From a bacterium HR28 (lineage in GTDB: Bacteria > Chloroflexota > Chloroflexia > Thermomicrobiales > Thermomicrobiaceae), in assembly GCA_002898255.1 (NCBI GenBank), contig BEIE01000002.1, positions 620,001 to 684,000 on the forward strand: 64,000 bases of DNA. The letters are read 5' to 3'. A program made the translations under genes and the position numbers. Shown in pieces: positions 19,019-36,502 of the stretch. The notes under the pieces are model-generated. The model was not told the origin of the DNA, did no database searches, and saw only the letters and a program-made list of their open reading frames with translations. Every line of letters begins with the position of its first letter. The stretch's first letter is position 1.

Positions 19019-19720
19019 TCAGCGACGCTCATCGCAGCGTAGCTGCTTGGCGAGCTCGCGCTGACGCTGGAAGACAAAGCGAACGATCGCATCTTCCGTG
19101 CGGCGGTCCAAGCGTTCAAACTGGCAACCGTGGTCCCAGCGTGGTGGATCAGAATGGTCAACTGGTGCGATACGTCGGACCACGGCCACGGCGCTGATCG
19201 GCTGCGGCTGACCGGGCAGCGTGAAACGGAGCGCGAGCCGATCGCCGGCGCGGAGTGACTGTGGCAGCCGCAGTCGTATGCCGCCGGCGCTGAGGTCCAT
19301 GATCGTGCCTTTGAGTGGCTGTGGTTCCCCACTGGCAGGCAGCAAGAGGAGTTCCGTTGGGGTGAGGGTGAGAGGGATGCGGCAGTGCTCGCGGCGTTGC
19401 ATCCGCTGCCATGGTCCAACGGGTGCGAGGACGAGTCGTGCTTGGGGCTCGAGCAGGGTGGCCAGGACCTCGCAGGGGACAACATAGAGCGCATCATCGG
19501 GGACGGTGGTGCCAAGATAAACCAGGTCGCTGCGGTGCACCGAGACGTAGGCGAGCTGCACCATCGGCCAGCCGACGATGATCCGTTGCCCGTCGTCGCT
19601 GAAATCCTCAACGCGTGTGCGGTGCCAGGTCAATCGACCGTTGCGGCTGGGTACGCCGAGTTCGGCCGCTTGCCAGACGGTGAACCCCTTCGGTGGCTGA
19701 GTTGCTGGTTGCTGGACCAT
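19019..19720 (-). CDS. PilZ-domain protein (YcgR-like c-di-GMP receptor)
   Basis: QRMQRREHCRIPLTLTP (RxxxR) ... IMDLSAGGIRLRLPQSLRAGD (D/NxSxxG). Confidence 0.8.
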   Translation of the reverse strand: MVQQPATQPPKGFTVWQAAELGVPSRNGRLTWHRTRVEDFSDDGQRIIVGWPMVQLAYVSVHRSDLVYLGTTVPDDALYVVPCEVLATLLEPQARLVLAPVGPWQRMQRREHCRIPLTLTPTELLLLPASGEPQPLKGTIMDLSAGGIRLRLPQSLRAGDRLALRFTLPGQPQPISAVAVVRRIAPVDHSDPPRWDHGCQFERLDRRTEDAIVRFVFQRQRELAKQLRCDERR

Positions 19721-23326: not shown

Positions 23327-25228
23327 ATGGGCGCTGACGAGCTGCTGCATCAGGTCGGCGACAAGATTTTTCTTTGCCTTGGCTTTAGTCCAACCGAGTT
23401 GCTTTGGCAGCGGCTGGCGCGGGTCGTGCAGCAGGAAGCGAAGCGGGCCGGTGCAGCTAGCGTTGACGAGTTCCTGCAGCGGGCACTGCGGGGCGAGCGA
23501 GCGGTACTGGAAGCGATCTGCCAAGGGCTAACGATCAACGAGACCTACTTCTTTCGTGAGCCGAAGCACTTCGATGCGCTGCGGCAGCTCCTACCCGAGC
23601 TCGCGGCGTTGCAGCGGCCGCTGCGGATCCTTTCGGCTGGATGCTCGAGTGGCGAGGAGCCGTACTCTCTGGCAATGACGGCCCAGGATGTGCTTGGTCC
23701 GCTCGGCCACAGCTTCGAGATCTTGGGAGTCGATTTCGATGCTGAGGCACTGGAACGCGCTCGACAAGGTTGCTACCGGTCCTGGTCGTTCCGCGACCAG
23801 GGGATGCAGCGGGCACGGGCGTATGTGGAACAACGTGGCGAGCTGTGGTGCGTGCGGGAGAGCATCCGTGCGCGCGTCACGTTCGAGCAGCTGAACCTGA
23901 TAGAGCGAGTCCCGTCTGGACCGTTTGCCGTGATCTTCTGTCGGAATACGCTCATGTACTTCACAACCGAGCACCGGAACGCGATTGTGCGCCGCTTCAC
24001 TGAGGAGCTCTTGCCAGGGGGAGTTCTTGTTATTGGCTCGGCCGAGACACTGGAGCGGCCGCCAAGTGAGCTGGAACGGGTGACCATTGCAGGAGCGTAT
24101 CTCTACCGAAAGCGGCCGCGCCTGGGCAGCGTCACGACAGTGGCCGACGAGGATCCAATACAGGTACTGCTAGTCAGTGCATCACCGGTGACGCGGGTCG
24201 CCATCCGGCAAGCGCTGCGTCTACTGCCGGGCGTGGAACTGGTCGGTGAAGCACGCTCGTTGGAGGAGGCGCGGACACGCCTGGAGGACCGTCCGGCAAC
24301 TGTGGTGGTCGATGCGTTAGAGAATGGCATTCTGCTCGAACGGCTGACAGGGTTGCAGAGCTGGCCGGTCGTTGTCCTTGTCGGGCCTGGCGTGCAGCCG
24401 CCGCGTGGTGTTCCGGCTGTTGCAGTACCGGAACTCGTTCCCGGTGCCGTCCGGCGGGTGGCGCCAGAGCTTGGCGAGGCGCTTGCTGCGGCGCGTTCGC
24501 GCTGGCGTGATCGTCCCAAGGTCGACGGTGCGGCGCGAGCAGGAACGGGGATTCTGCGGCGACCGTCGCCGGTTGGGGGTACTGTGCGCCCCAACGGACG
24601 ACCTGGCACAGGCACACTCGCCGAGCCGGTACGCCGAGCAGCTGAGCGGCTCTTGCTGATCGGCTCGTCTACTGGTGGGCCGGCGGTTGTGGCGGAGCTC
24701 GTGGCAGCGCTGCCACTGGGTCTTGGACTTGGGGTGCTGGTTGTCCAGCACATGCCGCCGAACTTCACGAGAAGCTTTGCCGAGCGCTTGGCACGGGTAG
24801 GGCAGTACGCGGCCCGTGAGGTGGAGGATGGGGAGTTGGTGATGGCCGACACCGTGCTGGTGGCGCCCGGTGGTCGGAATGTGCTGCTGACGCGGGCAGG
24901 AAGGGTGCAGGTCGTGCCGCCGGAGCCAGAGGATATCTACGTGCCGAATGTGAACCGGGCGTTCGTCTCAGTGGCGCGGGCCGGCTGGGGGCCGCGGGCT
25001 ATGGCAGTGATCCTCACCGGGATGGGGGATGACGGGGCGGTAGGGATGGCCGAACTCCAGGCGGCAGGCGCCTACACCGTGGTACAGCGACCGGAGGAGG
25101 CAGTGGTCTCTGGAATGATCGAGGCAGCGCTGGCACGGGGTGGGGTACAGAAGGTGGTGGCTGCTGCCGATATCCCTAGTGAGGTCGTGCGCTGGGCCCA
25201 GCGTGGCGTGCTGGTTCCGCCGCGCTGA
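23327..25228 (+). CDS. CheR methyltransferase - degenerate receiver - CheB methylesterase fusion
   Basis: CheR: SAGCSSGEEPYSLAM, INETYFFREPKHF, IFCRNTLMYF. REC-like: IQVLLVSASPVTRVAIRQAL...VVVDALENG. CheB: LIGSSTGGPAVV (Ser), VVQHMPPNFT (His), LTGMGDDGAVGM (Asp). Confidence 0.93.
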   Translation: MGADELLHQVGDKIFLCLGFSPTELLWQRLARVVQQEAKRAGAASVDEFLQRALRGERAVLEAICQGLTINETYFFREPKHFDALRQLLPELAALQRPLRILSAGCSSGEEPYSLAMTAQDVLGPLGHSFEILGVDFDAEALERARQGCYRSWSFRDQGMQRARAYVEQRGELWCVRESIRARVTFEQLNLIERVPSGPFAVIFCRNTLMYFTTEHRNAIVRRFTEELLPGGVLVIGSAETLERPPSELERVTIAGAYLYRKRPRLGSVTTVADEDPIQVLLVSASPVTRVAIRQALRLLPGVELVGEARSLEEARTRLEDRPATVVVDALENGILLERLTGLQSWPVVVLVGPGVQPPRGVPAVAVPELVPGAVRRVAPELGEALAAARSRWRDRPKVDGAARAGTGILRRPSPVGGTVRPNGRPGTGTLAEPVRRAAERLLLIGSSTGGPAVVAELVAALPLGLGLGVLVVQHMPPNFTRSFAERLARVGQYAAREVEDGELVMADTVLVAPGGRNVLLTRAGRVQVVPPEPEDIYVPNVNRAFVSVARAGWGPRAMAVILTGMGDDGAVGMAELQAAGAYTVVQRPEEAVVSGMIEAALARGGVQKVVAAADIPSEVVRWAQRGVLVPPR

Positions 25229-25254
25229 GTCGGAGAAAGCGGATGGGGGGCACG

Positions 25255-25635
25255 ATGTTGAAGGTTCTCATTGCCGATGACTCGAAAATGATGCGTGTCA
25301 TGCACGTGCGCTCACTGCGTCAGGTGGGATATGAGGTGGAGGTCACCGAAGCGAACAACGGTGAGGAGGCACTGGCGCAGTTTGAGCCGGGTAAGTTCGA
25401 TCTCGTCATTGTCGACTGGAACATGCCGGGGATGGACGGCATCGAGTTTGTCCGAGCGGCACGGGAGAAAGAGAACGGGGCGGCTCGGCGGACACCGATC
25501 CTGATGATTACGAGTCAGAGTACCGAAGAGCAGATGCTCAAGGCCAGGGAGGCAGGGGTCGATAACCTCTTGACGAAACCGGTGACGCCGGAGGCGCTCG
25601 GTGCAGCACTTGAGCTACTTCTCGCGCGGGCCTGA
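25255..25635 (+). CDS. cheY: CheY-like response regulator
   Basis: VLIADDSKMMR, VIVDWNMPGMDG, MITSQST, LLTKPVTPE. Confidence 0.93.
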   Translation: MLKVLIADDSKMMRVMHVRSLRQVGYEVEVTEANNGEEALAQFEPGKFDLVIVDWNMPGMDGIEFVRAAREKENGAARRTPILMITSQSTEEQMLKAREAGVDNLLTKPVTPEALGAALELLLARA

Positions 25636-25661
25636 GGTGTGGGGTGGGGAGGAGTGGCGTC

Positions 25662-26174
25662 GTGAGCCACGCGATCGTACAGGAGCTGACGGCGAGTGGG
25701 CAGCTCGTGGCCTTCATTGGCCAGGCGGCCAAGGAAGCGCTCGAGCCGTTGTGTGGTACTGAGGTGACGGTTGTGGGTGAGGGGGAGCTCCCGTGGGCGC
25801 ACCCGCCAGTAGGGATTGCGCTGGTGACCGTAGTCGATACGGGCGGCGGAGGTTTTCAGGCCGTCGTCTGGCTCGGGGGTGAACTTGAAGCGCTGGCTTC
25901 CGTGGCCGAGGTCCTGCTCGGTGAGCGACCGGACGGTGAGGACGAGATGCTCCAGGATGCCGTCCGGGAGCTGACCAACATTCTGGCCGGACAAATTCAA
26001 CGGCATCTGGCTGGGGTGGGGTTGCAGATGGGGCTTGGGCTGCCGGTGTATGTGAGTGGAGCCAAGAGCCTGAACGTGGGAGCGAGTCTCTCGAGTGGGG
26101 CTGCAGTGCGGGTGCAGGTCGGGTTGCCCGATCAACCGGTGCTCGACGTCGGTTTTGCTGCCAAGGAGGGTTAG
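25662..26174 (+). CDS. CheX-like chemotaxis phosphatase
   Basis: EDEMLQDAVRELTNILAGQIQRHLAGVGLQMGLGLPVYVSG resembles the CheX E-xx-N region; directly follows cheY. Confidence 0.7.
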   Translation: MSHAIVQELTASGQLVAFIGQAAKEALEPLCGTEVTVVGEGELPWAHPPVGIALVTVVDTGGGGFQAVVWLGGELEALASVAEVLLGERPDGEDEMLQDAVRELTNILAGQIQRHLAGVGLQMGLGLPVYVSGAKSLNVGASLSSGAAVRVQVGLPDQPVLDVGFAAKEG

Positions 26175-26193
26175 GAGCGGCAAGGAGCGAGGC

Positions 26194-26943
26194 ATGTCGG
26201 TCAAGGTCGCGCCGGTCTTTCCAGCGAGCGCGCCACTGACGCGCAATCCCAAGGTGCCCCAAAAGTACCGCGCCGTGCTGTGGGAGCAATACCTGCTTCC
26301 GACTGTCGCGGAGAACGTGGCGACGCTATTGGGCATCACGGTGGGTTTTTTGCCTGAGTCGATTGTGGGGGCGTACTTTGAGCGTGGCAAATTCCCACCG
26401 CAGTCGGGCTGGGCCCTGGCCCGTTTTCGGGTGAATCTGCAGGGGCAGGAGGTGCCTGCATACCTTCTGCAACCACTGGCGGAAGCGCTCGACTGGGGTG
26501 CGATCGGGATGCGACGGCCACCAGCGACTCGCGAGGCGCCCAGTGTCGGGAAAGATGGCGTGCAGCTTAGTGAGGCGCAACAAGGCGATCTTGCGGCGTA
26601 TCACGAGGTGTGCAACGTCGTGACGTGTGGGGTGCTTGCGCGTGCCTGGCGTGCCAAGCTGGGGCGACCGCTGGCCATTCTCTTGGACGGGGTGGAGGCA
26701 GTCACGCCAGCGCAGTTTCCTGCCGAACTGGAGCAGGGAAAGTGGCTGATCCTGCAAGCCAGCTTTGGTTACAGTGAGCGACCGGTGAAGCCGGCAAAGG
26801 GACAGTCGCCGCAGTACGAGAAGCAGACGGTCTGGCTGTTTGTGGTGCCAGAGTCGCTGGCGCTTGCGGCGCTTTGGGGCGCACCGGATGGGCGAGAGAA
26901 GGACAAAACAGCTTGGCTCGCAAGCACGGGGCAGTGGAAGTAG
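26194..26943 (+). CDS. Uncharacterised protein, possibly diverged CheC/FliM-like
   Basis: Fourth gene in the chemotaxis run; contains HEVCNVVTCGVLARAWRAKLGRPLAILLDGVEAVTP, which loosely resembles the E-xx-N region of CheC-like proteins. Confidence 0.6.
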   Translation: MSVKVAPVFPASAPLTRNPKVPQKYRAVLWEQYLLPTVAENVATLLGITVGFLPESIVGAYFERGKFPPQSGWALARFRVNLQGQEVPAYLLQPLAEALDWGAIGMRRPPATREAPSVGKDGVQLSEAQQGDLAAYHEVCNVVTCGVLARAWRAKLGRPLAILLDGVEAVTPAQFPAELEQGKWLILQASFGYSERPVKPAKGQSPQYEKQTVWLFVVPESLALAALWGAPDGREKDKTAWLASTGQWK

Positions 26944-28811: not shown

Positions 28812-28839
28812 TCAAGCAGACTGCGGTGTTGTCCGAAAT
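28812..28839 (+). promoter_or_regulatory. Candidate FliA-like promoter of MCP1 (TCAA-N16-TCCGAAAT)
   Basis: Same layout as flaG and flagellin upstream regions. Confidence 0.45.
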
Positions 28840-28879
28840 ATCTCGGAGAAACGGGCAGGTTGTCGCTTGGGGAGGTTCC

Positions 28880-31000
28880 ATGATGACGCTTGGCTTCAGG
28901 GGGAAGGTGCTAGGGATCTTGGCGGCAATGGCTGCCGTCTTCGTGGTTCTCGGTGCCGTGGGCTGGTTTTTGATCTCTAGCAGCTTGCGGGCGGTCGACA
29001 CTGTCGCAGAGATGAATGACGTGCTTGCGACCGTTGGCCAGATGTCACGCCGGATGACGGAGGTACGCACGAATGTCGTTGCTCATGTTGGGGCGACGAC
29101 AAATGCCGACTATCGCAAGCAGCTCGATGCGCGCATTGCCGAACTGGACCAGAAAATCGCGGCTGACCTCGATGCGCTGGCTGCGACTGCGCATACCGAC
29201 GAGGAGCAACGAGCGATCCAGAACCTCCGTGATGCTTGGACGGCCTATCGGCAATCGGCTGAGCGGACCCTGCAGCTCTCGCGCCGGTATGACCTGGTCG
29301 CGGCACAGCAGAACATGACGACCGATGCGGCCCAGAAGTTCGATGCATTACTGCAGGCGATCCGCGAAACGGAGAGCGTTGCACAGGCCGATGCGCAGGC
29401 AAACACCAGCAAGACTCAGGCACAGCTCAACATGCTTCGTTTCACCACGCTGGGTGCCGCGGGCTTGGCGCTGGTGGCGTTCGTGATCGGCTTCTTGGTG
29501 CTGCGGCCGGCGCTGCGAACGGTCAGCGCAGTAGCGCAGGTGAGTGAGCAGCTTGCGGAACGGGAACTGGCCGCACTGGAGCATGCGCTGGGCCGCCTTG
29601 CGGCTGGTGATCTGACGGCTCGCTTTGCGGTGAGCACTGAGCCGCTGACGGTGCGTGGACACGATGAACTGGCGCGCATGGGCCAGGCGTTTAACAAGAT
29701 GCTGGAACGGCTGCGGGCGGTTGGGGAGACATTTGGTCAGGCATTGGACGATCTGGCCCAGCTCATCGGCCAGGTTCGGCGAGCAGTCAGTGAAGTGAAT
29801 CAGGCTGGTAGCCAAACGCAAGCACTCTCGGCCCAGATCGCTGATGCGACCACTGCCGTGGCGCGCACAGTGCAGGACGTGGCGCAGGGCTCTTCGACTC
29901 AGGCTGAGCAGGTCAGCGCGGCCTCTACTGCCGTCGATGAGATGGGTCAGACTATTCAAGCCGTGGCCAAGGCAGCGCAAGAGCAGGGCCGAGCACTGCA
30001 GCGGGCGACGGAGTTGGTACAGCAGATGGCGGAGCGCAACCAGCGAGCTGGTGAACTGGCTCGGGTGGTGACCGAACGCGCTGGACGGAATCGAGAGCAG
30101 GCGGAAAGTGGTGGCGCTGTCGTCGAGCGCACGCTGGGTGCGATGGAGCGGGTGCGGGTGCAGGTCGAAGCGACCGCACGGGCGATCCAGGAGCTAGGCG
30201 AGCGCTCGAAGCAGATTGGACAGATTGTTGAGGTCATCAACGATCTCACCGAGCAGACGAATCTTCTCGCGCTCAATGCGGCGATTGAAGCAGCCCGAGC
30301 GGGCGAGGCAGGCAAAGGATTCGCAGTGGTGGCCGAGGAGGTGCGCAAGCTGGCCGAGCGCTCGGCTGCCTCAACCCAGGAGATCGCCCAGATGGTGCAG
30401 GGCATCCAACGCACCGTCGAGCAGGCAGTCGCGGCAATGACGGAAAGCGCTGGCTCGGTAACCCAGGTGAGTGATGAGGCGCGTGAGGTTGCGCAGGTCT
30501 TCCAAGCGATTCGCCAGGCTGCGGACGAGGTTGCAGAGCGCAACCGTGAGCTTCTGCAGGCGCTGGAAGAGATTGCCAAGCGCAGCGCGGAGCTGCGAGC
30601 GACGATGGAGGACACAGCGACGATCGCCGAAGAGAACGCAGCGTCGGCCAGTGAACTCTCCTCGACGGCCGAACAGGTGCGGAGCTCGATCCGGCATGTC
30701 ACGGCAGTGGCGGAGCAGAACGCTGCTGCGGCCGAAGAAGTGTCCGCTGCGACTCAAGAGATGGCAACTCAGGTGGGTGAGATTGCCGCGGCGGCTGAGC
30801 AGTTGGTGGGGCTGGCTGGCCGCCTGGCGCAGCTGGTTGAGCGGTTCCGGGTGGGGGACGAAGAGCAAGCAGGATCGGTTGCTGCCGTCCGCAGTGGTGA
30901 CGGGGTTCCCTGGGGCAATGGGACTGCCAAAGGACCCGAGTTTGCACATCCAGCACGAGTGGGAACCTCCGTGCCGGGGAATGGTCGTGGAACGTGGTGA
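28880..31000 (+). CDS. Methyl-accepting chemotaxis protein (MCP1)
   Basis: Two TM segments, HAMP, signalling tip [38 protein letters not shown]. Confidence 0.95.
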
Positions 31001-31037: not shown

Positions 31038-34000
31038 GTGGGTGAGGACCGTGAGCTCATCGAGATGTTCATTGAAGAGACACGCGAACGTCTGGAGCTC
31101 ATTGAGCCGGCGCTCGTCGAGCTAGAGCGGGCCGAGACGCCAGCGGAGAAAGAGCGACTCCTGAACGAGGTCTTCCGTCACTTGCACTCCACAAAGGGAA
31201 GCGCTGGCTATCTCAACTTGAACGATCTGGTGGCGTTGGTGCATGCCGCTGAGCATCTCGCCGATGTCCTGCGTAAGGGTGCACCAGTGCAGCCGGAACA
31301 CGTCGATCTTTTGCTGCAGACGGTCTCGCTGACACGCGCCTACCTGGCCTATCTGGCTGGACAGGGCGAACTGCCCTCAGGGCTGGGGGCGCTGACCGAG
31401 CGGTTGCAGCGCGCAGCTGCGGTGGCGACGGAGCACCCCACTGCGGCAGCGTCAACAACCAGCGAGTCACCGCCCGCAGGCGCAGCGGCAGCGAGCCAGA
31501 TGGACGGCGAAGGACGTGGCGAGGAGAGCCGCACGGCGGACGCCGAGTTGACGAGTTCCACAGTACGGGTACCGGTGCATGTGCTCGATCGACTTGGGCG
31601 ACTGGCCGAGGAGATGCTTGTCACGCGCAACCGGATCACGGCGCTGGCTGCCAACTTACAGGACGGGGAGTTGGTTGGTGCTTCAAAGAAGCTCTCGGTG
31701 ATGGTCTCCGAGCTCCAGGACATCGCGGCGTTGACGCGCCTGCAGCCAATCTCCTCCCTGTTCGCCCAGATGCCGCGGGTGGTGCGGGATGCTGCGCGAC
31801 TCGCGGGGAAGGACGTCGATCTGGTCATCGATGGAGGGCGACTGGAGGTCGACCGGCGGATCTTGCAGGAGCTCCGTGATCCTCTGGTGCATCTCCTGCG
31901 CAACGCGGTTGACCACGGGATCGAGTCGCCAGAACGGCGCATCGCGTATGGCAAACCGTCGCGCGGGCGGATCACGCTCCGAGCAAGCCGCGAGGGCTCG
32001 AACTTGGTCATCGAGGTCAGTGATGACGGAAAAGGGATTGACTACGAGGCAGTGCGGCAGAAGGCGGTCGAGCGGGGGTTCGTCAACGCTCGCGAGGCCG
32101 CGACGTTGACCGAAGCGGAATTGAACGCGTTGCTCCTGCGTCCTGGATTCTCGACACGGGATCAGGCGACGGAGCTCTCGGGTCGGGGAGTGGGGCTCGA
32201 CGTCGTTGCGGTGCGGATGCAGGAGCTGGGCGGGAACCTGAGCATCTCGTCGGTTCCTGGGCAGGGAACGACAATCCGTCTGGTGGTGCCGACCTCGGTC
32301 TCGGTGATGAACACTCTCGTTTTCACGGCGCGAGGCTATCTCCTGGGCATTCCCTACAACGTCGTGCAGGAGATCGTGCTCATCACCGACCGGCAGATCG
32401 AGCACTACGGCGAGCAGGATGTCTTCCGTCTGCGTGATCAGCTGGTCCCGCTGTTCACCCTGGCGAGCTGGCCAGAGCGGGGCAATGGGGCGAAGCGGCA
32501 GTCGGGGAAGCACTATGTCCTGGTGTTGCGGGGTGAGGGAACGCTGGCTGGCCTCCTCTGCGACGGGATTGCTCGCTTTGAGGAGCTGATTGTCAAGCCG
32601 GTGGGTAACCTCCTCCGTGGTGTGGAGAGTGTGAGCGGGCTGGCGACGCTGGGGACAGGGGAGATTGTGCTCATCCTCGAACCGGAGAAGATTCTGGCCG
32701 AGGCCGGGCTAGCCATGGCCAAGATCCGAGCCGAGCAGGTGCAGCTCGGGCTTGTGCAAGAACATCAGGCGGTCGAGGACGATCTCGGGGAGCGACTCGT
32801 GCTGCTGAAGGGGTACGGCGAGCATCGCTATGCCCTGCCGGTGCGACTCGTCTCGCGCATTGTGCGCTTCACCCCGGAGGAGCTCGCCATCTTTGGCGAA
32901 CGGGTGTACTACCGGACGGAGGAGGCTCTGATCCCGCTCGTCGACCTTGACCGGGCCCTGAAGATGGGTGCGGGCGGGATGGAGGGGGGCGGCATTGCCG
33001 TTCTCCTGCACGCGGACAATCTGGAGTGCGGCTTTGTCGCCTCACAGGTAGTGCGAATTGGGCGCGTCGGTATCGAGCCAGAGCCATCAGACCGGCATGG
33101 TGTGGCTGGCCTATTGAACCTGCCAGACGGCGTGTATCTCATGGTCGATGTGCCGAGCGTGGTGCATGGGGAGCTCCGGCGGCTCTACGAAGTGAAGCAA
33201 GAAGCGCGGTCGGTGCGAGGCAAGAAGGCGCTGATTGTCGAAGACAGCGTCTTCTACCGTGATGCGCTCGAGGCGGTCTTGAAGCGGGTGGGTTATGACG
33301 TGAGCGCCGTTGGCAGTGCCGAGGAAGCATTGGTCTTCTTGGCGCGAGTGCCCGACGTAGCGCTCATCATTACCGACTACATGCTTCCGGGAAAGAGCGG
33401 GCTCGACCTGATCCAGGCTGTGCGTGCTGGCGAAACCGCAGTGCGGTCGGACGTGCCGATCGTTGTCCTTTCCCAGTTGCTGTCTGATCAGGCAAGTGGC
33501 CCAGAGCTCCAGCGTCGGTTGCTGGCAGCCGGCGCCAATGCTGTCTTCGGGAAGTTTGACGATCTGGAGCAGAGCCAGCTCCTGGAGGAGTTCCGGCACT
33601 TGGTCGTCCACGACGAGCGACATGAGGAGGCGACCGAGGAGCAACGGAGTGAAGACGAGACGGTGCACGTGCTGGCGGTCAATCTGGGACCGGAGGTCTA
33701 CGGCGTGCCGATTGACCGGGTGCGGGAGATCACGACGCTTGACGGCATCACGCCGACACCGCTTGAAGATGCAGGATTCCTGGGTCTTGCGAACATCCGC
33801 GGCGAGATTGTGCCGGTCTTCGACCTGGGCGGTGTCCTGCGCCGTCCGGTGCGGACGAACGGCGAGGCGGTTGATGTCGTGACGCTGACGAGCCTTGGGC
33901 CAATGGTCTTGCGGGGAGAGAGTATCCGCGGGACGATCCGTGTGCCGGTCAGCGAGCTGCGCGAGCCAACCGGAAACCTCGGTGCGCTGGCCGAGCTCGT

Positions 34001-34088
34001 CCCCTCGGTAGCGACCTTGCCAGATTGCCTCTTGCAGGTGGTAGAGCTGGAGAAGCTGGCGAGCGTCTGCCTGGGGCGGCGAGGATAA
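31038..34088 (+). CDS. cheA: Hybrid CheA: Hpt-HATPase-CheW-CheW-REC-CheW
   Basis: Hpt FRHLHSTKGSAGYL; HLLRNAVDHGIESPERR; SGRGVGLDVV; three CheW-like segments; receiver ALIVEDSVFYRDAL...LIITDYMLPGKSGLDL. Confidence 0.93.
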   Translation: MGEDRELIEMFIEETRERLELIEPALVELERAETPAEKERLLNEVFRHLHSTKGSAGYLNLNDLVALVHAAEHLADVLRKGAPVQPEHVDLLLQTVSLTRAYLAYLAGQGELPSGLGALTERLQRAAAVATEHPTAAASTTSESPPAGAAAASQMDGEGRGEESRTADAELTSSTVRVPVHVLDRLGRLAEEMLVTRNRITALAANLQDGELVGASKKLSVMVSELQDIAALTRLQPISSLFAQMPRVVRDAARLAGKDVDLVIDGGRLEVDRRILQELRDPLVHLLRNAVDHGIESPERRIAYGKPSRGRITLRASREGSNLVIEVSDDGKGIDYEAVRQKAVERGFVNAREAATLTEAELNALLLRPGFSTRDQATELSGRGVGLDVVAVRMQELGGNLSISSVPGQGTTIRLVVPTSVSVMNTLVFTARGYLLGIPYNVVQEIVLITDRQIEHYGEQDVFRLRDQLVPLFTLASWPERGNGAKRQSGKHYVLVLRGEGTLAGLLCDGIARFEELIVKPVGNLLRGVESVSGLATLGTGEIVLILEPEKILAEAGLAMAKIRAEQVQLGLVQEHQAVEDDLGERLVLLKGYGEHRYALPVRLVSRIVRFTPEELAIFGERVYYRTEEALIPLVDLDRALKMGAGGMEGGGIAVLLHADNLECGFVASQVVRIGRVGIEPEPSDRHGVAGLLNLPDGVYLMVDVPSVVHGELRRLYEVKQEARSVRGKKALIVEDSVFYRDALEAVLKRVGYDVSAVGSAEEALVFLARVPDVALIITDYMLPGKSGLDLIQAVRAGETAVRSDVPIVVLSQLLSDQASGPELQRRLLAAGANAVFGKFDDLEQSQLLEEFRHLVVHDERHEEATEEQRSEDETVHVLAVNLGPEVYGVPIDRVREITTLDGITPTPLEDAGFLGLANIRGEIVPVFDLGGVLRRPVRTNGEAVDVVTLTSLGPMVLRGESIRGTIRVPVSELREPTGNLGALAELVPSVATLPDCLLQVVELEKLASVCLGRRG

Positions 34089-34310: not shown

Positions 34311-34338
34311 TTCAGCGCCAGGTGAGAACAACCGATAA
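34311..34338 (+). promoter_or_regulatory. Candidate FliA-like promoter of MCP2 (TTCA-N16-ACCGATAA)
   Basis: CCGATAA matches the FliA -10 consensus; -35 half is weak. Confidence 0.35.
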
Positions 34339-34390
34339 CTCCCATCAGCTGGCTAGTCGTGTCGGGCTAGCCGACGTGGAGAAGACAGAG

Positions 34391-36502
34391 ATGGGAGGAA
34401 GGATGGGGAGGATGAGCCTTTCCTGGCGGCTGCGGTTACTCGTTGTCAGTGTTCTCGCCATCGGTGCGCTCGGTATGCTGGTTGGCTCGTTGAGCCTCGG
34501 AATGATTGCACGGGAATCACGAGGTGTGCTTCAGCACGAGGTGCCCGCGATTGAACTCTTGCTGAACATCGACCGTGACGCATATCAGGCGCAATATGCG
34601 CTGGAGCGGAGCTTGCTGACGAGCGATGCGCAAGAGCGTGAAGAACAGCTGGCCGACTTTCGCGAGAACGCGCAGCAGACAGGGGATCGCTGGGAGCAGT
34701 ATAAGGCGCTCGTGCCAGGCAGCGACGCGGAGCGAGCGCAGTGGGAGATCTACGAGCGAGAGCGGGCGGCGTGGCTGGCGGCAGCCGAGCAGGTGGCCGC
34801 AGCAAGCGCGGCGGGGAACGTCGAGCAGGCACTCACAGCGCTGCCCGAGGTACGGGCGCACTTCGCGCCAATGCGTGAGGCGCTGAACGCCTTGCAAGAC
34901 GAGATCTACAGTCCAGCGATTGCTGAGCACGGGGCGAAAGTCGTCGGACTTAGCCAGCAGCGCTCGTTCCTGATGTGGGCACTCCTCGGTGTGGCACTTG
35001 TCGTGGGTACTGCGCTCTCCTGGCTTGTCGCTCGACAGATTGCTCGTCCGCTGCGTCTGTTAGCTGACGCAGCGGAGGCGATTGCGGCTGGTCGAGTGGA
35101 GGGGCTTCAACTGCCGCGCTATGCTGCCCGTGATGATCTGGGGCGGCTGGTCGGCCAGTTCCGACAAATGGCTGCGCGGATCACGGAAGTAGCCGAGCAG
35201 GCAGTACGGGTCGGCCGCGGGCAACTTGTGACCGAGGTCGCTCTTGCGCATGAGCGTGACGCACTCGGTACGGCGTTCCAGCAACTGACGCAGGCGTTGC
35301 GAGCGACACTAGGTGAGGTGCGTGCACTCGGAGAACGCGTCGCGCAGGCGGCGGGAGCGCTGCGCGAGCAGGCGACCCATATCGAACAAGCGACGGTGCA
35401 GGCAGCTGATGCAGCCCGTGCTGTTGCCGCCGGATCGGGTGAGCAGTCGGCACGGGTGACGCAACTCGCTCAAGCGCTGGAAGAGGTGGCTGAGACAGTC
35501 GCAGCCGTGGCGAAGGCGGCTCAGGAGCAGGGTAGTGCGTTACAGCGCGCAGTGGAAGTCGCGCAGCGGGTGAGCGAGCGAGTGAGTGGTGTGGAGGAAT
35601 TGGCACGTGCTGGTCTGACGACCGCGCAGGCAAATGCCGGACGGGCGGAGGCTGGTCGGGAGACGGTAGAGCGGACGCTCCGGGACGTGATGGGGGCACG
35701 AGAACGGGTCACCGACGCGGCGCGCACGGTAAGCGAACTCGGCGAACGCTCGCGGCAGATCGGACAGATCGTGGAAACGATTGAGGGAATTGCCGAGCAG
35801 ACGAACCTCTTGGCGCTGAACGCAGCGATCGAGGCGGCCCGTGCCGGCGAGGCGGGTAAGGGGTTTGCGGTGGTAGCGGAAGAGGTGCGCAAACTTGCCG
35901 AGCGCTCGGCAGAAGCGACGCGACAGATCGCCGAACTGATCGGTAACGTGCAGCAGCTCGTGGAGCGTGCCGTGCACGCGATGGCAGCCAGTGCGCAGCA
36001 GGTCGAGGCGGTGAGCGAGCGAGCGGGCTCACTGCGCGAGGCATTTGAAGCCTTCGCGGGCTCAGCGCAGGAGGTGGAGACGCAGAGCCGCACCGTGCTT
36101 GTCGCAGCGGAGGCGATCGGCCGCGAAAGTCGTGAGTTGAAGACGTTAATGGAAGAGACGGCAGCGATCGCTGAGCAGAACAGTGCAGCAGCCGCGGAGC
36201 TCGCCTCCACGATCGCACGGATGCGGCAGGACGTGCAGCAGGTGGTCACGCTTGTGGAGGGGAACACCGCAGCGGTGCAAGAAGTCTCGGCAGCAGCGGA
36301 AGAGCTCACCGCGCAGGTGAGCGAGGTCAGCGCCTCGGCGGGCGATCTAGACCAGGTGGCGCGCGACTTGCGCCGGGCACTGGCGCGCTTCGAGCTGGGG
36401 ATAGAGACGAAGGCGGATGAAGAAGCACGCTGGCCGGCGGTGGGCGTGGGTGAGGGTACCAACGGACACCGATACCGGGAACTCGTGGTGGTCGACCGCT
36501 GA
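34391..36502 (+). CDS. Methyl-accepting chemotaxis protein (MCP2)
   Basis: TM-4HB-like-TM-HAMP and [40 protein letters not shown]. Confidence 0.95.

Follow-up and report, generated by a model that had tools for sequence, protein, structure and literature searches.

A CheR-CheB Fusion with a Degenerate Receiver in Thermomicrobium and Two Related Genera

The Fusion Gene and Its Chemotaxis Locus

The stretch of DNA analyzed here (64,000 nucleotides, referred to as the window) contains at positions 23327-25228 of the + strand a single open frame of 633 codons, exactly where the original prediction had placed it. The stop-to-stop frame extends upstream of 23327; the ATG at that position is preceded by a strong Shine-Dalgarno sequence (gaggaggagcgATG), and the alignable region in relatives begins at the same ATG. 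Judged by its domains, the encoded chain of 633 amino acids and ~68 kDa is an intact CheR, a receiver of the CheB type, a linker predicted to be disordered, and an intact CheB methylesterase. The CheR methyltransferase (residues 1-262; 23327-24112, +) consists of N-terminal helices and a SAM domain. Pfam PF01739 covers residues 71-249 (E 4.5e-49, 167 bits against a cut-off of 27), the motifs NETYFFRE, SAGCSSGEEPYSLA, and FCRNTLMYF are intact, and the SAM and receptor-methyltransferase motifs are conserved. The SAM motifs and fold are those of canonical CheR (PDB 5XLY, 5FTW, 1AF7), with PDB matches over residues 17-263 (5XLY). Unlike canonical CheR, the fusion continues covalently into CheB, and its N-terminal domain is not matched by the Pfam CheR_N model.

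The CheB methylesterase domain (residues 440-628; 24644-25210, +) is matched by PDB structures and, over residues 444-619, by Pfam PF01339 (E 1.9e-49, 168 bits against a cut-off of 24). Ser448 in GSSTGG (24668-24670, +), His475 in QHMP (24749-24751, +), and Asp569 in GMGDDG (25031-25033, +), which from knowledge of the family we take to be the catalytic residues, are invariant in an alignment of ten fusion members. The original prediction of one chain with a complete CheR, a receiver-like segment, and a CheB with its Ser-His-Asp residues is therefore borne out by Pfam, by the motifs, and by these invariant positions, and the tethering of methylation to demethylation that it proposed follows from the single chain. 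Between the enzymes lie the receiver segment (residues 276-394; 24152-24508, +), placed by alignment, profile-profile comparison, an AlphaFold model, and Foldseek, and a flexible linker (residues 395-438; 24509-24640, +), the fastest-evolving part of the protein, with pLDDT below 50 at 396-435. A long linker that is predicted to be disordered would suit a chain that is cleaved, or an internal start, either of which would yield separate CheR and CheB in the cell. We consider this improbable, as the frame is continuous in all members, there is no separate gene, and visual inspection of the window around the linker showed no conspicuous internal start.

The genome (3.12 Mb, 99.6% complete) has a single CheB domain and a single CheR domain, and the fusion frame encodes both. 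A search for a second CheB or CheR elsewhere in it found neither, and CheD, the alternative receptor modifier, was not found in the genome either. The fusion is therefore not a spare copy but the only recognized adaptation enzyme of the cell. From the intact domains and catalytic residues, its CheR would methylate, and its CheB demethylate, the eight chemoreceptors (MCPs) of the genome; no pentapeptide tether (xZxxZ) is evident by eye at their eight C-termini.

The fusion gene always adjoins a gene for a single-domain CheY (25252-25635, +; PF00072, E 4e-27), which in turn always adjoins one for a CheX-type CheY-P phosphatase (25644-26174, +). CheX is immediately followed, in each of the three genera that carry the fusion, by a conserved protein of ~250 amino acids (26188-26943 in the window; 63-84% identical) without a Pfam or PDB match, in which the stretch EVCNVVTCGVL slightly resembles CheC/CheX motifs. 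This order is common to all loci read, and wherever the contig reaches far enough (L165, L166, and Thermomicrobium roseum), MCP-CheA-MCP or MCP-CheA comes next. In the window, two MCPs with 4HB, HAMP, and signaling domains, both likely substrates of the fusion (28826-31000, +, by Pfam and locus comparison; 34322-36502, +), flank a CheA (31038-34088, +, by Pfam and locus comparison) with Hpt and kinase domains, three CheW domains, and a receiver; Pfam did not find a P2 docking domain in it. The T. roseum CheA has been described as having three CheW domains, with a CheY-like domain lying between one of them and the other two (PMC10542144). Finally, a PilZ-domain protein with weak similarity to the YcgR N-domain is encoded at 19019-19720 (-), just upstream of flagellin; it is a possible c-di-GMP brake or CheR partner.

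A Receiver That Keeps Its Fold and One of Five Residues

Pfam Response_reg finds no match between CheR and CheB_methylest in the window's protein, nor in any Thermomicrobium fusion; in the second genus, weak sub-threshold matches appear (E 0.0013-0.03). The NCBIfam CheB model gives a match that starts at residue 278 and lies under its cut-off. With hhalign, a family profile of the middle segment does match the receivers of canonical CheBs at 97% (E 4e-11); it further matches the Thermotoga CheB receiver 3t8y (E 4e-6), which is also the best match by fold when the receiver model is searched with Foldseek. The AlphaFold (AF2) model of this segment, at pLDDT 88, reads beta1-alpha1-beta2-alpha2-beta3-alpha3-beta4-beta5-alpha5, without alpha4. 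By profile and predicted fold, the middle segment is thus a receiver of CheB descent. The fusion model aligns to 1A2O and 6YMZ over both CheB domains, and the order of receiver, linker, and esterase, the fold, and the triad are those of canonical CheB (Salmonella 1A2O, Pectobacterium 6YMZ, Thermotoga 3T8Y/3SFT). The fusion differs from these proteins in having CheR in front, and in a receiver that has lost most of its conserved positions.

The extent of this loss emerges from an alignment that sets the fusion members against 38 unfused CheBs of many different phyla. All of the canonical CheBs carry an acidic pair (DD or ED) before Ser; they also have a phospho-Asp with a short loop leading on to D/N-G, a Ser/Thr behind beta4, and a Lys behind beta5. 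In the fusion, VLLVSASP stands in place of VLVVDDSA, with Ser284-Ala285 (24176-24181, +) at the Mg-binding site; every member has S-x here, the Ser being invariant and the second position variable. All members also share a four-residue deletion after the Asp, lack the Ser/Thr consensus and the Lys, and have lost the MPxMDG loop together with helix alpha4, the region of which is truncated. Asp329 in VVVDA (24311-24313, +) aligns with the phospho-acceptor, is found without exception in the members, T. roseum among them, and lies in the model where beta3 ends, its usual place in a receiver. Both halves of the original prediction for this segment, that the acidic pair is missing and the phospho-Asp position kept, therefore stand, and the comparison with canonical CheB that it had called for adds the Thr/Ser, the Lys, the loop, and alpha4 to what is gone.

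A receiver without any one of the residues DD, D, T, and K is a pseudo-receiver by definition (PMC12632262). Since four of the five are absent from all members and only the Asp is left, while the fold is predicted to be kept, the receiver of the fusion is, as read from its residues, a pseudo-receiver by this published definition. It differs from the pseudo-receivers surveyed there (Bourret et al. 2025, PMC12632262) in retaining only the Asp of the five, in the loss of alpha4, and, in Thermomicrobium, in escaping detection by Pfam Response_reg. Because the catalytic residues of the receiver are missing, we strongly infer that the CheB of the fusion no longer receives phospho-feedback from CheA. 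A receiver that still works, with Asp329 phosphorylated by CheA or a small donor through unusual chemistry and regulating CheB, could explain why this Asp is invariant and correctly placed at the end of beta3, and a CheA with an Hpt domain is at hand. This reading is very improbable nonetheless, given that every member lacks the metal-binding acidic pair as well as the Thr/Ser and the Lys, all of them catalytic according to PMC12632262.

Selection on the chain was assessed by omega (dN/dS) in five pairs with unsaturated synonymous change (own-L102, L105-L108, L092-L088, L088-L097, and L092-L097). Values of 0.06-0.15 for CheR and 0.07-0.17 for CheB compare with about 0.20-0.34 for the receiver, and the linker is higher still. 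The receiver is under relaxed yet still purifying selection. The purifying selection argues that the fusion protein is in use, despite the statement in the T. roseum genome paper that the organism is non-motile (PMC2615216).

This constraint, together with the invariant residues of the segment (S284, P287, R290, R294, G307, E308, R310, D329, and A330), is what one would expect of a pseudo-receiver that remains regulatory, being switched by a protein partner, a small ligand, or docking to a receptor, and gating the active site of CheB or CheR. Pseudo-receivers elsewhere work by protein or ligand binding (PMC12632262), ShkA and c-di-GMP offering a precedent (PMC7010744); moreover, the PilZ protein is encoded at the same locus and CheR is known to form a complex with MapZ (PDB 5xly). 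However, helix alpha4, part of the usual output face of a receiver, is missing, and a long, fast-evolving linker to CheB that is predicted to be disordered does not suggest tight coupling. In L163-L165, moreover, the surroundings of the fusion gene gave no PilZ match. We regard continued regulation by the pseudo-receiver as conceivable, though rather unlikely.

Recurrence and Origin of the Fusion

The search of related genomes suggested with the original prediction recovered the CheR-REC-CheB chain in 11 species of three genera within one family. Six of the carrier genomes belong to the genus, and in one of these a contig end interrupts the chain; four others represent two further genera of the family. 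In T. roseum DSM 5159, the fusion lies on the finished megaplasmid NC_011961 (locus TRD_RS13840, NC_011961.1 194833-196728). When a full-length profile was run against 400 genomes from the phylum, complete fusions turned up in those three genera only. A contig scan with a degenerate pattern, which missed the two sister genera, showed the fusion in Thermomicrobium alone among its best 80 loci. The original prediction had raised the prospect of an assembly frameshift merging two genes, to which a sequencing error may be added. This did not hold. Nothing was found in its favor, and the fusion recurs at a conserved flagellar/chemotaxis locus in 11 independently assembled species, the finished T. 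roseum megaplasmid among them, which rules out the frameshift and leaves practically no weight on an artifact of either kind.

The RefSeq name of the T. roseum fusion is 'chemotaxis protein CheB'. In the genome paper of T. roseum, a CheR (trd_A0210) is mentioned but no CheB (PMC2615216); from gene order, trd_A0210 would be the fusion gene, in which case each of the two annotations misses half of the fusion. The same paper reports that the T. roseum cheR branches apart from other Chloroflexi (PMC2615216).

Elsewhere in the class, cheB and cheR occur as separate neighbors or as CheB-CheR hybrids of the opposite order. In the unfused relatives L008, L143, and L144, the two genes share one reading frame and are divided by just one stop, so that the loss of one stop codon suffices for such a fusion. 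The likely history is that the stop was lost between adjacent, co-oriented cheR and cheB, after which a redundant phospho-switch would have decayed. In the CheB tree and the CheR tree alike, fusions of the Thermomicrobium type group into a separate clade with full support. No close unfused sister appears in either tree of the sample, the neighbors being different in the two and weakly supported. The trees fit either sequence, whether fusion or decay came earlier, and fusion followed by decay is the likely one.

A Proposed Replacement of the Phospho-Switch by a Single Chain

Phosphorylation of CheB is a textbook negative feedback loop. The best explanation of the fusion is, in our judgment, that of a single-chain adaptation enzyme, in which a locked 1:1 ratio has taken the place of phospho-feedback and the receiver remnant serves as a spacer; we hold it to be probable by a modest measure. 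CheB would presumably be constitutively active or fixed at one activity, given the missing receiver residues, and precise adaptation would rest on the preferences of CheR and CheB for receptor states. Indeed, E. coli with CheB-D56E or CheBc, which lack phospho-feedback, still adapts precisely (PMC5809149). What suffers in E. coli without feedback is the spread of pathway activity, which becomes wide and bimodal because the CheR:CheB ratio varies, and chemotaxis in soft agar is impaired (PMC5809149). In the fusion, the 1:1 ratio that the covalent link imposes on CheR and CheB, rather than CheB phosphorylation, would shield the set point of the pathway from expression noise. Coupling of cheR and cheB has been predicted to increase robustness (PMC2716512), and across bacteria the cheR-cheB pair is conserved as a preferred block of genes (PMC2829493); the fusion would be the limit of such coupling, in which the ratio cannot vary. 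Because a 1:1 fusion removes the very ratio noise that feedback buffers, the fixed ratio may have made the switch dispensable, and it could then decay into a structural spacer or scaffold that holds both enzymes. A toy steady-state model with parameters from PMC5809149, which illustrates this logic and is not evidence on the present organism, gives a CV of 0.69 for two genes without feedback, 0.26 for two genes with feedback, and 0, a zero by construction, for a fixed ratio without feedback.

In favor of the single-chain adaptation enzyme we count that the genome has no other CheR or CheB, that the fusion is conserved in 11 species, and that both enzymes are constrained. Against it, the conservation of Asp329 and of the other invariant receiver residues apart from A330 exceeds what a bare spacer would need, and T. 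roseum is described as non-motile (PMC2615216). In addition, 20 unfused CheB-only frames, some of them truncated, also lack a receiver, so fusion is not the only setting in which the receiver is missing. The wider proposal, that this is a natural rewiring in which the covalent joining of writer and eraser at 1:1 stands in for CheB phospho-feedback to keep the set point robust and leaves a fossil receiver, is tentative, and we think it somewhat more doubtful than not. If true, it would be evolution's own test of the idea that the feedback exists to buffer noise in the CheR:CheB ratio, since a lineage without feedback whose enzymes are welded at a fixed ratio tests the purpose of that feedback directly. 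In heat-loving Thermomicrobium and its closest kin, a fusion with a mostly lost switch suggests an unusual way to balance methylation and demethylation.

CheR, CheB, pseudo-receivers, and CheB-CheR-PAS-histidine kinase fusions of the opposite order are already known. A search of the open-access literature found no description of a CheR-pseudoREC-CheB architecture, and the CheR-first order with a dead receiver seems undescribed. The kinase hybrids (e.g., L112) likewise hold CheR and CheB in one chain without a working CheB receiver, but they have CheB first, no receiver at all, and PAS and kinase domains after it, for a length of 900-1250 amino acids. With the order CheR-REC-CheB and nothing after it, the present fusion is not one of these hybrids. 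Among the CheB-CheR hybrid frames in relatives of the class (L085-L120), 18 of 18 lack the CheB receiver; fusion of CheR with CheB and loss of the receiver thus coincide in two unrelated architectures.
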